NCBI RefSeq assembly: GCF_022346945.1
Contig: NZ_JAKRNI010000018.1
Span: 1-64,000 of the forward strand
DNA: 64,000 bases
Reading direction: 5' to 3'
DNA from: Microbacterium sp. ACRRU
GTDB taxonomy: Bacteria; Actinomycetota; Actinomycetes; Actinomycetales; Microbacteriaceae
In this document: positions 16,797 to 58,627 of the stretch, in pieces
Layout: the number at the start of each line of letters is the position of its first letter
How positions within the stretch are numbered: the first letter of the stretch is position 1
Notes under the pieces: model-generated
Told to the model about the DNA's origin: nothing
The model's input: only the letters and a program-made list of their open reading frames with translations
The model's database searches: none
Position numbers and translations under genes: made by a program

Positions 16797-16800
16797 CCCG

Positions 16801-16864
16801 GCGCGAGTCGCCAAGACTTGTCGCCGCGGAGCACCCGACGGCGACAAATCCTGGCGACTCGCGC
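16801..16864. repeat. 64-bp palindromic element, copy 1
   Basis: Arms 16801-16826 and 16839-16864 pair over 26 bases with two mismatches. The ends read GCGCGAGTCGCCA and TGGCGACTCGCGC. It sits 4 bases after the HerA-like stop, between convergent genes, and could work as a bidirectional terminator. A second copy of the same length with the same ends lies inside a helicase gene at 53292-53355, so this is a dispersed element and not only a terminator. Confidence 0.8.
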
Positions 16865-16876
16865 GTGGCGGGGCGG

Positions 16877-22673: not shown

Positions 22674-22746
22674 CACGCATAAACGCGTTCGGCGAGCATA
22701 AACGCGCTGTGCATGCGTTTCTGCGCGTGGAAAGCGTTTATGCGTG
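22674..22746. repeat. Nested palindromic element between moaE and moaD
   Basis: Outer arms 22674-22690 and 22730-22746 pair over 17 bases with one mismatch (CACGCATAAACGC facing GCGTTTATGCGTG). A second inner pair repeats the same word GCATAAACGC with one mismatch. The element lies between convergent genes and could terminate both, but the four-fold use of one 10-base word suggests a repeat family. Confidence 0.7.
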
Positions 22747-49841: not shown

Positions 49842-49871
49842 CAGCCCCGGATGCCATGGCATCCGGGGCTG
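49842..49871. terminator. Bidirectional terminator with GGATGCC/GGCATCC pair
   Basis: A perfect 30-bp palindrome (two arms of 15) centred on CATG, between the convergent YiaA-like and LLM genes. It contains GGATGCC and GGCATCC. Confidence 0.75.
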
Positions 49872-51810: not shown

Positions 51811-54411
51811 GTGACCTCCCTCCTCGACCACGTGCCCGCAGGCAGCGACCCGGATGCCGCCTACCTCGGGTTCGTGGAGTGGGCGAGCGGTCGCGGACTG
51901 ACCCTCTACCCCGCCCAGGACGAGGCGGTGATCGAGATCGTGTCGGGCGCCAACGTGATCTTGTCGACCCCGACCGGCACGGGGAAGTCCCTCGTCGCTG
52001 TCGCCGCGCACGCGGCATCCCTCGCCCGGGGTGGTCGCAGCTACTACACCGCCCCCATCAAGGCCCTCGTGAGCGAGAAGTTCTTCTCCCTCGTCGAGGT
52101 CTTCGGTGCCGAGAACGTCGGCATGGTCACGGGCGACTCGTCGGTGAACTCCGACGCCCCGATCATCTGCTGCACGGCCGAGATCCTCGCCAACCTCGCC
52201 CTGCGGCAGGGGGCGGATGCCGACGTCGACCAGGTCGTCATGGACGAGTTCCACTACTACGGCGAGCCCGATCGCGGCTGGGCGTGGCAGGTCCCGCTGC
52301 TGCTCCTGACGCGAGTGCAGTTCGTCCTCATGTCGGCGACCCTCGGTGATGTCACCGACATCGCCGACGACCTCTCGCGGCGTACTGGCCGGCCGACGGC
52401 GCGGGTGACCGGCGTCGAGCGACCCGTGCCGCTGCACTTCGAGTACGCGCGGACGCCCGTGCACGAGACGGTGCAGGAGCTCCTCGACACCCGGCAGGCT
52501 CCCGTCTACGTCGTCCATTTCTCGCAGGCGGCGGCGATGGAGCGCGCGCAGGCCCTGTCGTCGATCCGCATCATCGGGCGGGAGCAGCGCGACGAGATCG
52601 CCGAGGCCATCGGTGGTTTCCGCTTCACGACGGGGTTCGGCAAGACGCTTTCCCGTTACGTCCGCGCGGGGATCGGCGTGCACCACGCCGGGATGCTGCC
52701 GCGGTACCGCCGCCTCGTCGAGACGCTCGCGCAGCGGGGCCTTTTGCGTGTCATCTGTGGTACCGACACGCTCGGCGTGGGCATCAACGTCCCGATCCGC
52801 ACGGTGCTGCTGACGGCGCTGACGAAGTACGACGGGCAGCGCATGCGGCAGCTCTCCGCCCGCGAGTTCCACCAGATCGCCGGTCGCGCGGGCCGCGCGG
52901 GGTATGACACGGCGGGGACGGTGGTCGTCATGGCCCCCGACCATGAGATCGAGAATGCCGCGCAGATCGCCAAGGCCGGCGACGACATCAAGAAGCAGAA
53001 GAAGATCGTCCGCAAGAAGGCGCCGCAGGGCTTCGTCAATTGGACCGAGCAGAGCTACGACCGCCTCGTCGCGGCGGAGCCCGAGCCGCTGCAGCCGCAG
53101 ATGAAGCTCACCGCCGCCATGCTGATCAACGTCATCGCGCGGGGCGGCGACGTCTTCGGCAATGTCCGCGCGCTCGTCTTCGACAATCACGAGCCCCGCG
53201 CCCGCCAGTACGAGCTCGCCCGCCGCGCGATCGCCATCTTCCGCACGCTGGTGCAGGCAGGGGTGGTCGAGGTAGTCCCCGGCCCCGCCCCGCGCGAGTC
53301 GCCAAATTCTGTCGCTTCGGGCGGCCCCGAAGCGACAAATCTTGGCGACTCGCGCATCCGGCTCACCGTGGACCTGCAACCGAACTTCGCGCTCAACCAG
53401 CCGCTGTCGCCCTTCGCGCTCGCCGCCATCGAGATGCTCGACCCCGACGTGGAGCTCGGCAGGGGAGCGGATGCCGCACCGTCGGCGTCCTCGGTCGGCA
53501 CGGGGCACTACGCGCTCGATGTCGTCAGCGTCATTGAGGCGACGCTCGACGACCCGCGACCGGTGCTGTCCCAGCAGCAGTTCCGTGCGCGGGGCGAGGC
53601 CGTGGCGGCGATGAAGAGCGAGGGGATCGAGTACGACGAGCGCATGGAGCTGCTCGAAGAGATCACGTGGCCGAAGCCCCTGGACGAGCTGCTCGCACAG
53701 GCGTACGAGGTGTTCGCCTCCAGCCAGCCGTGGATCCGTGACTTCGAGCTGTCGCCCAAGTCCGTCGTTCGCGACATGTACGAGCGGGCGTGCTCGTTCG
53801 GCGAGTACGTCTCGCTATACCAGCTCGCGCGCAGCGAAGGACTCGTCCTCCGCTACCTGAGCGATGCGTACCGGGCGATCCGGCAGACCGTGCCGGTCGA
53901 TGCGCAGACGCCCGACCTGCTCGACCTCATCGCGTGGCTCGGCGAAGTCGTGCGGCAGGTCGACTCGAGCCTGGTCGACGAGTGGGAGCAGCTCGTCAAT
54001 CCCGCCGACGACCCGTCAGCTCCGGTGGTCCCGCCGGCGCCGCCGTCGATCCTGACCAACCACCGCGCGTTCGTCGTCCTCGTGCGCAACGAGATGTTCC
54101 GCCGCGTGCAGTTGGCCGCGTTGCAGCGCGACGACGAACTCGTCGAGCTCGACCCGGCCGTGGACTGGCCCGCGGCGCTCGACGCCTACTTCGACGAGCA
54201 TGACGCGATCGGTACGGGGGGAGCGGCGCGGTCGTCGGCGTACGTCGCGATCGACGAGTCCGCGGCGTCGGATGGCCTGTGGCGGGTAGAGCAGACGATC
54301 GACGATCCGGCCGGCGACCACGATTGGCGCATCCGCGCCGGGGTGGACCTCGCGGCCTCCGAGGACGAGGGCACCGCGATCGTGCGTGTCACGGAGGTGC
54401 TGCGGCTCTGA
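51811..54411 (+). CDS. Ski2-like DEAD/DEAH-box RNA helicase (DUF3516)
   Basis: An 866-residue superfamily 2 helicase. Motif I is TPTGTGKS (about 52-59), motif II is VMDEFHYY, motif III is MSATLGD, then the HHAGMLPRYR and QIAGRAGRAG motifs of Ski2-like enzymes, then a DUF3516 C-terminal domain. Acts on RNA (possibly decay or ribosome work). The GTG start follows GAGGCT by 6 bases. About 22 residues near 494-515 are encoded by a palindromic repeat inserted in frame, in a linker before RIRLTVDLQPNFALNQPL. Confidence 0.9.
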   Translation: MTSLLDHVPAGSDPDAAYLGFVEWASGRGLTLYPAQDEAVIEIVSGANVILSTPTGTGKSLVAVAAHAASLARGGRSYYTAPIKALVSEKFFSLVEVFGAENVGMVTGDSSVNSDAPIICCTAEILANLALRQGADADVDQVVMDEFHYYGEPDRGWAWQVPLLLLTRVQFVLMSATLGDVTDIADDLSRRTGRPTARVTGVERPVPLHFEYARTPVHETVQELLDTRQAPVYVVHFSQAAAMERAQALSSIRIIGREQRDEIAEAIGGFRFTTGFGKTLSRYVRAGIGVHHAGMLPRYRRLVETLAQRGLLRVICGTDTLGVGINVPIRTVLLTALTKYDGQRMRQLSAREFHQIAGRAGRAGYDTAGTVVVMAPDHEIENAAQIAKAGDDIKKQKKIVRKKAPQGFVNWTEQSYDRLVAAEPEPLQPQMKLTAAMLINVIARGGDVFGNVRALVFDNHEPRARQYELARRAIAIFRTLVQAGVVEVVPGPAPRESPNSVASGGPEATNLGDSRIRLTVDLQPNFALNQPLSPFALAAIEMLDPDVELGRGADAAPSASSVGTGHYALDVVSVIEATLDDPRPVLSQQQFRARGEAVAAMKSEGIEYDERMELLEEITWPKPLDELLAQAYEVFASSQPWIRDFELSPKSVVRDMYERACSFGEYVSLYQLARSEGLVLRYLSDAYRAIRQTVPVDAQTPDLLDLIAWLGEVVRQVDSSLVDEWEQLVNPADDPSAPVVPPAPPSILTNHRAFVVLVRNEMFRRVQLAALQRDDELVELDPAVDWPAALDAYFDEHDAIGTGGAARSSAYVAIDESAASDGLWRVEQTIDDPAGDHDWRIRAGVDLAASEDEGTAIVRVTEVLRL
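53292..53355 (+). repeat. 64-bp palindromic element, copy 2, inside the helicase frame
   Basis: Arms 53292-53321 and 53326-53355 pair with few mismatches and share ends with copy 1 at 16801 (GCGCGAGTCGCCAA and GGCGACTCGCGC). It is translated as a Ser/Gly/Pro-rich stretch (RESPNSVASGGPEATNLGDS) within the helicase, without breaking the frame. Confidence 0.85.
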
Positions 54412-54525: not shown

Positions 54526-54987
54526 GTGACCGTCGACGCCGCGCAAGCGATCATCGCTCTCGTCGCGCTCTTCGTCACGTTCGCCTCCCTGATTCTCGGC
54601 GGGACGAAGTGGATGATCGTGCGGATGGAACAGCGCATGGATCGCCGCTTCGTCGACTCGGAAACGCGATGGGACGCGCGGTTCGCCCGTGCGGAAGAAC
54701 GGTGGGAAGCGCGGTTCGCTCGATCCGAGAGCCGCCTCGCCGAGCGCTTCGAGCAGGTCGACAAGCGCTTCGAGCAGGTCGACAAGCGCTTCGAGCAGGT
54801 CGACAAGCGGTTCGAGCAGGTCGACAAGCGCTTCGAGCAGGTCGACAAGCGCTTCGAGCAGATCGACCATCGTCTCGTCGCTCTCGACGAGGAGATCCGG
54901 GGTGTGCACGACTCCCTGTCAGACGTCAAGGTCGCCCTCGCCCGGCTCGAGGGCCCTCACCCGCCCTTCCTGATCGCGCGCGGCTGA
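54526..54987 (+). CDS. Membrane-anchored coiled-coil protein with heptad tandem repeats
   Basis: 153 residues. A membrane helix near the N-terminus (IIALVALFVTFASLILGG), then a long coiled coil. Residues about 74-115 are six RFEQVDK-type heptads, the last diverged to RFEQIDH. The C-terminus continues HRLVALDEEIRGVHDSL. No family recognised beyond a general YdaO/DUF1640-like coiled coil. GTG at 54526 follows GAAAGGA; an earlier in-frame ATG lacks a ribosome site. Confidence 0.75.
   Translation: MTVDAAQAIIALVALFVTFASLILGGTKWMIVRMEQRMDRRFVDSETRWDARFARAEERWEARFARSESRLAERFEQVDKRFEQVDKRFEQVDKRFEQVDKRFEQVDKRFEQIDHRLVALDEEIRGVHDSLSDVKVALARLEGPHPPFLIARG
54745..54870 (+). repeat. 21-bp tandem repeat encoding heptads
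   Basis: Six contiguous 21-base units (CGCTTCGAGCAGGTCGACAA plus G); unit 4 differs by one base and unit 6 by four or so. Each unit is exactly one coiled-coil heptad, so copy-number changes keep both frame and helix register. Confidence 0.9.
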
Positions 54988-58574: not shown

Positions 58575-58627
58575 AGTGTCCAAGACACGCGGACGGCCCG
58601 TCGTGGCATCCGCGTGTCTTGGACACT
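58575..58627. repeat. Perfect 19-bp inverted repeat between convergent genes
   Basis: AGTGTCCAAGACACGCGGA (58575-58593) and its exact complement (58609-58627) around a 15-base loop. It follows the SDR stop by 40 bases and precedes the aldolase stop by 31. It may terminate both, but its length and sequence resemble a dispersed palindrome. Confidence 0.75.

Follow-up and report, generated by a model that had tools for sequence, protein, structure and literature searches.

A dispersed 64-bp palindromic element of Microbacterium resides at gene 3' ends and lies in frame within one helicase gene

The window analyzed here is a stretch of 64,000 nucleotides of DNA from Microbacterium sp. ACRRU. On its plus strand, positions 51811 to 54411 encode a DEAD-box helicase with a DUF3516 domain, identified from the open reading frame, its translation, and Pfam, and this gene bears an in-frame copy of a 64-bp palindromic element at positions 53292 to 53355. 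Inverted-repeat, pattern, and limit analyses delimit the element, and neither it nor its parts are assigned to a strand. By alignment of the copies in the same genome, the helicase copy is made up of a 24-nt left arm of the GAG-TCGCCA subfamily (53292 to 53315), a variable 16-nt loop (53316 to 53331) that also folds as self-complementary in this copy, and a 24-nt right arm (53332 to 53355). Viewed simply as an inverted repeat, it has 30-nt arms that are 90% complementary (53292 to 53321 and 53326 to 53355). The same unit recurs at 16801 to 16864, as the inverted repeat and the comparison with relatives both indicate, with 26-nt arms that are 92% complementary (16801 to 16826 and 16839 to 16864), and it fills a convergent intergenic gap of 80 bases (16797 to 16876). 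Both copies are therefore where the preliminary description had put them, one inside the helicase gene and one between two convergent genes, the convergence being that given by our codon-usage gene caller. This caller was trained on 21 open reading frames of the window, and all gene contexts reported below derive from it and not from annotation. Two arm patterns had 3 and 4 matches in the window, compared with 0.00 on average over 100 shuffles for each, and three stretches gave folding z-scores of -7.45, -7.52, and -8.46. No known RNA family matched the window at its gathering score, and the helicase copy gave 17 weak matches, mostly to microRNA models and all below their cut-offs; a known RNA family was ruled out as the identity of the element on these grounds.

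The helicase copy had been described as translated without a break in the frame, in a linker between the helicase core and the C-terminal part of the protein. The frame from 51811 to 54411 is indeed open through the element, which, when read from its second base, supplies 21 codons (RESPNSVASGGPEATNLGDSR). Pfam placed Helicase_C at residues 285 to 364 and DUF3516 at residues 375 to 863. The insertion site does follow Helicase_C, but it lies inside DUF3516 and not between two named domains. In the gene after the helicase, we also read about five near-perfect 21-bp tandem repeats coding for FEQVDKR (54730 to 54860).

When one arm was searched for in the whole genome (3.14 Mb in 71 contigs), allowing three mismatches at most, 36 forward and 39 reverse matches were found, compared with 0 for a reversed control. 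These matches assemble into 40 copies, in which a loop separates the 23-nt arm CGYGAGTCGCCARGATTTGTCGC from the same arm in reverse; a looser pattern gave 42 matches. The loop is 16 nt long in 38 of the 40 copies and 14 nt in another, and one copy has a decayed right arm. The preliminary description had left room for there being no further genomic copies of its 64-bp consensus; with 40 of them in this genome, the element belongs to an interspersed palindrome family. In all 40 copies, the 62-mer is preceded by G and followed by C, and one base further out the preference is gone, which sets the length of the unit at 64 bp. Flanking target duplications, which had been proposed as something to look for, were absent at the 40 copies: the flanks were equal over 2 nt in 6 copies, over 3 nt in 1, and over 4 to 9 nt in none. 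A DNA uptake sequence was considered and rejected because nearly all arm matches in this genome are paired. Separately, we observed that contigs G000:C2 (50618 to 50704) and G000:C11 (1 to 87) have in common the end of one gene, which we take to be murB-like, and one element arm, with two differences in the first three bases, and then diverge; an assembly artefact, a duplication, or recombination at an element could each account for this.

We then looked for covariation in an alignment of the 38 copies with a 16-nt loop. Half of the pairs (15 of 30) show change on both sides, and for each of five covariation measures, none of 500 shuffles reached the observed value, with slid controls lower as well. 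The loops differ among copies, yet by folding energy each half fits its own partner: the mean was -15.8 kcal/mol, compared with -12.8 kcal/mol (standard deviation, 0.38) for half-swapped loops and -14.1 kcal/mol for the best of 300 swaps. Single loop columns pair little above the shuffled expectation because the small loop hairpins are offset.

The strict pattern occurred in 7 of 198 genomes of the genus, and a covariance model matched 68 of 366 (E ≤ 1e-3); at most 14 matches were scored per genome with this model, so its figures are not copy numbers. The looser pattern was found in 48 of the 366 Microbacterium genomes, 22 of which had at least 8 copies and the richest three 46, 43, and 42, although single matches may be due to chance, as 13 genomes had one match to the reversed control. 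All 25 loci with the exact pattern in GTDB contigs are titled Microbacterium. Beyond the genus, the model matched 25 of 199 genomes at the family level (our own included), spread over 18 of 85 genera, and 11 of 297 at the order level, namely, our own, two of the same family, seven from one genus of another family, and one from a third family. The arms read in these genomes were GARTTGCC in G404, with a 62-nt core in 12 of 12 copies, GARGTGTC in five copies of G472, and TTGCC...GTCGC in five copies of the other family, with cores of 60 to 62 nt. A 26-nt loop was read in two copies of G390; in genus g26, all 7 listed places span 72 to 73 nt, and the 2 read have this 26-nt loop, 10 nt longer than usual. 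Loops of 15 nt were also read (two copies of G357 and one of G482). Taken together, these readings show that arms are alike within a genus and different between genera, while the geometry stays nearly constant. One 24-base pattern had no exact match in viral contigs, and one 64-base copy had no blastn match in plasmid or phage records; a phage or plasmid vehicle was set aside on these results, which, with a single short query each, are weak evidence.

With respect to genes, 17 of the 40 copies are convergent, 15 tandem, 3 divergent, 1 intragenic, and 4 at contig edges. All 15 tandem copies are closer to the 3' end of the upstream gene, and 39 of the 40 copies have no deep overlap with a called gene, most of them lying just behind stop codons. 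The 99 distinct copies that we examined at other loci came from several searches and include close relatives, so they are not an even sample: 34 were convergent, 47 tandem, and 5 divergent, 2 overlapped gene edges, 1 was at an end, and 10 were called intragenic. Among the tandem copies, 43 of 47 were closer to the 3' end (medians of 9 and 67 nt). The 10 called intragenic comprise seven helicase orthologues (L083 to L089), which the helicase search itself had fetched, the same gene in G328 (L158), which the covariance model had found, and two copies (L133 and L138) that lie 24 nt from the gene end, at the C-terminal end of the protein. Within this uneven sample of 139 copies, then, all deep intragenic ones are at one helicase codon.

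The gap at 16801 was searched in 27 relatives, in 25 of which both flanks were found. The element was present in 2 of these (G197 and G275) and a GGATGCC...GGCATCC hairpin in 20, whereas none had both and 3 had neither; in two of the latter three, only 9 bases separate the aligned gene ends. This alternation is our best evidence that the element may do the work of a terminator, as judged by position and at one junction. Of our 40 copies, 1 has a GGATGCC hairpin within 120 nt. The window itself has such hairpins at 1228 to 1244 and 49849 to 49864 (3 matches, compared with 0.02 expected), and in this group they appear to be an ordinary hairpin of terminator type. Of the nine convergent gaps of the window, the eight that were judged by reading all contain a strong hairpin; the other spans 576 bases. 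Other palindromes were seen as well. One, with GTGTCCAAGACAC arms, lies in a convergent gap at 58575 to 58627, and in G197 and G275 arms of this type belong to a unit about 64 bp long; there may thus be more than one palindrome family of this kind. Another convergent gap holds a 73-bp inverted repeat with CATAAACGC motifs (22674 to 22746). At the 16801 site of four relatives (L181, L183, L187, and L189), a further motif pair, TGCGCAACCTCAG...CTGAGGTTGTGCG, is present, sometimes more than once.

Next, we compared our copies with those of the relative G197, which were collected with a pattern requiring a 16-nt loop and are uninformative on loop length. Sixteen of 23 G197 copies are at loci where our genome also has one; the pattern listing contributed 11 of its 18, and regions already aligned with our copies all 5 of theirs. 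For 4 of the 16, the match is one-sided; a copy without a match is one at none of our loci, with about 1 kb compared beside each. Over the 16 orthologous pairs, identity was 676 of 768 positions (88.0%) in the arms, 139 of 256 (54.3%) in the loops, and 159 of 480 (33.1%) in the 15 bases flanking on each side. In nonorthologous pairs, the arms were 87.5% and the loops 43.0% identical. Because the arms are nearly as alike between nonorthologous copies as between orthologues, descent cannot be read from them. Some junctions carry different arm types in different species (GAGTCGCCA versus GAGGGGTCA). Where an arm pair differed between orthologues (72 cases), the change was compensated in 13, the pair was Watson-Crick in one genome only in 53, and it was so in neither in 6. 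These comparisons indicate that copies persist and that their arms are held to a family consensus while the loop and flanks drift.

The G197 copies are clustered, with 8 spacings below 2.5 kb where 1.2 were expected (0 of 5,000 simulations). Copies within 60 kb of each other have more similar loops (9.2 versus 7.9 of 16 positions; 0 of 2,000 permutations as high), but their arms are not more alike (480 of 2,000 permutations). In a group of six copies at 878 to 924 kb, a span of 46 kb, the arms are nearly identical, and the loops begin with CTCGG in all but one; without this cluster, the loop signal is matched by 256 of 4,000 permutations. In our own genome, neighboring loops are not more alike (3,067 of 4,000 permutations as high). 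Local hopping as a general rule was therefore rejected, as it holds only with the one G197 cluster. A segment of element, gene, and element in G197 (L268:11216-12725), in which the gene looks like an MFS transporter, is missing in G052 (L270:4496-4694). The preliminary description had also pointed to a REP-associated transposase. The model for such enzymes, PF01797, matched 0 of 17 genomes and 5 of 14 control genomes, and a RAYT/IS200-type transposase as mover was rejected as far as PF01797 represents it.

The history of the helicase copy was examined in the 30 best-scoring orthologues from 198 genomes, 21 close and 9 more distant. An in-frame element is present at the same codon in 8 of the 21 close genomes and absent in 13. 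All 9 more distant helicases also lack the 21 codons, although three of them (G046, G099, and G089) contain different additional residues at this place. Thus, the prospect that all orthologues would have the same residues at this place, which would have spoken against an inserted unit, did not materialize. None of the 8 aligned carriers, nor G328, has a stop in the in-frame copy. A helicase tree built without the insert columns needs at least 7 presence changes, compared with a mean of 7.2 for shuffled labels, and 4 of them are forced by well-supported branches. A second tree, from the two genes beside 16801, needs at least 7, of which 6 are forced; both trees come from quick searches in which SH-aLRT was the sole measure of support, and in the second, G009, G054, and G170 fill less than half of the columns and G043 was left out. 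The sister pairs G016/G020, G006/G071, and G166/G052 differ in the insert.

How this pattern arose is a matter of weighing gain, loss, and exchange. The loops of the eight helicase copies look related by eye, which speaks for one origin and disfavors repeated independent insertion at this codon, although coding constraint could also cause the likeness. Repeated precise loss is opposed by the 13 empty alleles, which share an AG.DG-like stretch that we could not derive from the filled form. Allele exchange between species could also account for the patchiness, but flanking helicase sites showed no linkage with insert presence, and divergence beside the insert was not clearly raised (slightly in G016/G020 and G072/G062 but not in G166/G052 or G006/G071). 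Both arms are of the GGGTC type in G166, G083, G016, and G072, with GAGTC-type sequence on some right arms, and the G328 copy has by eye a single arm mismatch. The patchy distribution of the in-frame copy provides natural pairs of sister species with and without the element.

The reading that we favor, with somewhat better than even confidence, is that the element is a slowly moving REP- or MITE-like palindrome of an old family, chiefly of Microbacteriaceae, that doubles as a bidirectional transcription stop. It starts from what the sequences themselves display: dispersed copies with sharp limits, a near-fixed 16-nt loop, covariation, genus-specific arms, residence at gene 3' ends, the hairpin alternation at 16801, and presence and absence between sister species at the helicase site. 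A trans-acting factor would read the arms and make new copies, and those that land just behind stop codons would be retained. There, the hairpin of about 30 bp may act as a bidirectional transcription stop for the neighboring, often convergent genes, and a terminator role retained in this way would keep the arms and length conserved while allowing drift in the loop and flanks. That GGATGCC hairpins and the element alternate at one junction hints at a way in which the task of stopping transcription may pass to a repeat. The helicase copy would be an uncommon insertion into a region of a gene that tolerates it, where it is probably hardly usable as a terminator, where ribosomes would read its 21 Ser/Gly-rich residues, and where it may have been gained or lost repeatedly between species. 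Against this explanation, conserved arms and a constant loop length are not required of a terminator, a common U-tract and a target duplication are absent, PF01797 matched none of 17 genomes, and 53 of the 72 changed arm pairs are Watson-Crick in one genome only. One alternative is that the element is a binding site on duplex DNA, at which a protein would touch, from a single side of the helix, the conserved GNC and TGTCGC blocks in each arm. Helical phasing would then set the loop length, and the symmetry of the protein would account for the palindrome, with termination, if any, by roadblock. By reading, the block centers lie at about 11, 21.5, 43.5, and 54 of the 64 positions, or about one, two, and one turns apart; the loop is 16 nt long in 38 of 40 copies here and in 12 of 12 in G404, the 26-nt loop of g26 (2 read), the one genus whose element length is clearly different, is 10 nt longer, or about one turn, and arms are alike within a genus. 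However, duplex binding does not ask for loops that covary, loops of other lengths exist (14 nt in one of our copies and 15 nt in two of G357 and one of G482), and there is no protein candidate; we regard this explanation as a real alternative, though an unlikely one.

Somewhat less probable still, in our judgment, is that these are terminators only, that is, hairpins under selection that gene conversion or hairpin-templated repair has made uniform without any transposition. Their position at gene ends, the alternation with GGATGCC hairpins, and the covariation all suit this view, and compensatory evolution of terminators is described in PMC5381666. Yet an in-frame helicase copy in 8 species and sharp 64-bp limits imply insertion as a unit, and the similar loops of neighboring G197 copies likewise speak against uniformity without movement. 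We give very little credence to the resemblance with which the preliminary description began, a mobile unit like the Rickettsia palindromic elements that has been selected to tolerate translation; the in-frame copy is free of stops in all 8 aligned carriers and in G328, but the 139 copies include a single deep intragenic site and two at C-terminal ends, the unit is only 64 bp long, and the remaining copies lie between genes, at gene edges, or at contig ends. A bolder version of the favored reading, which we offer as a speculation with the odds clearly against it, is that a whole class of transcription stops in these actinobacteria is a mobile, protein-read element whose sequence-specific factor binds both arms at a spacing of whole helical turns (the 16- or 26-nt loop), copies or exchanges the element between gene ends, and toggles the helicase copy between sister species. 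Because the geometry is fixed while arm positions are paired but changing, hairpin formation and helical phasing each make clear predictions.

Much is known about interspersed palindromes in Proteobacteria and in the pneumococcus. Among the papers listed in our literature searches, drawn mostly from outside subscription journals, none was seen to describe a family of this kind in Microbacterium or Microbacteriaceae. Each system with which we compared the element has one or more defining features, tested here, that the element lacks, and it is thus a member of none. The pneumococcal SPRITE differs from the 64-bp element in sequence and size. The SPRITE, RUP, and BOX repeats are nevertheless similar in being interspersed, in including a terminator-like repeat (SPRITE), and in being bunched, as described in PMC10969869; they belong to another phylum, and the element here is nearly two-fold symmetric and alike on both strands. 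MITEs, as characterized in the same source, are also noncoding inverted-repeat units with sharp ends, but here there is no target duplication, the interior (the loop) differs between copies, and no parent insertion sequence is known. The Rickettsia palindromic elements share with ours a palindrome in frame inside a gene; according to PMC10969869, they are about 150 bp long, and close to half of the 44 in the first report lay in open reading frames, whereas our 64-bp unit occupies a single gene in this way. Frequent in-frame insertion in unrelated reading frames was not seen, with 1 of 40 copies intragenic, at one deep codon, and 39 outside called genes, so the likeness drawn in the preliminary description is weak. 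With REP elements, whose transposases (RAYTs) are IS200/IS605-like, the element shares a short, GC-rich palindrome, an intergenic position, arms specific to a lineage, and a number of copies per genome in the tens; these REP features are taken from PMC2817692, which also gives over 100 copies per genome as usual, whereas our richest genomes have 42 to 46 by the looser pattern. Unlike REP elements, the 64-bp unit has a nearly fixed 16-nt loop, PF01797 is found in 0 of 17 genomes, and no common GT(A/G)G head stands beside the hairpin in the flanks of the 40 copies. Stem-loop families have been surveyed (PMC2267715). Bidirectional intrinsic terminators differ from the element in that its arm sequence is conserved, its length is fixed, and it forms a dispersed family; the flanks of the 40 copies, read by eye, have no common U-tract behind the stem. 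What the element does have in common with such terminators is a strong, stable hairpin just behind stop codons, in both directions and often between convergent genes, with some of its changes compensated.
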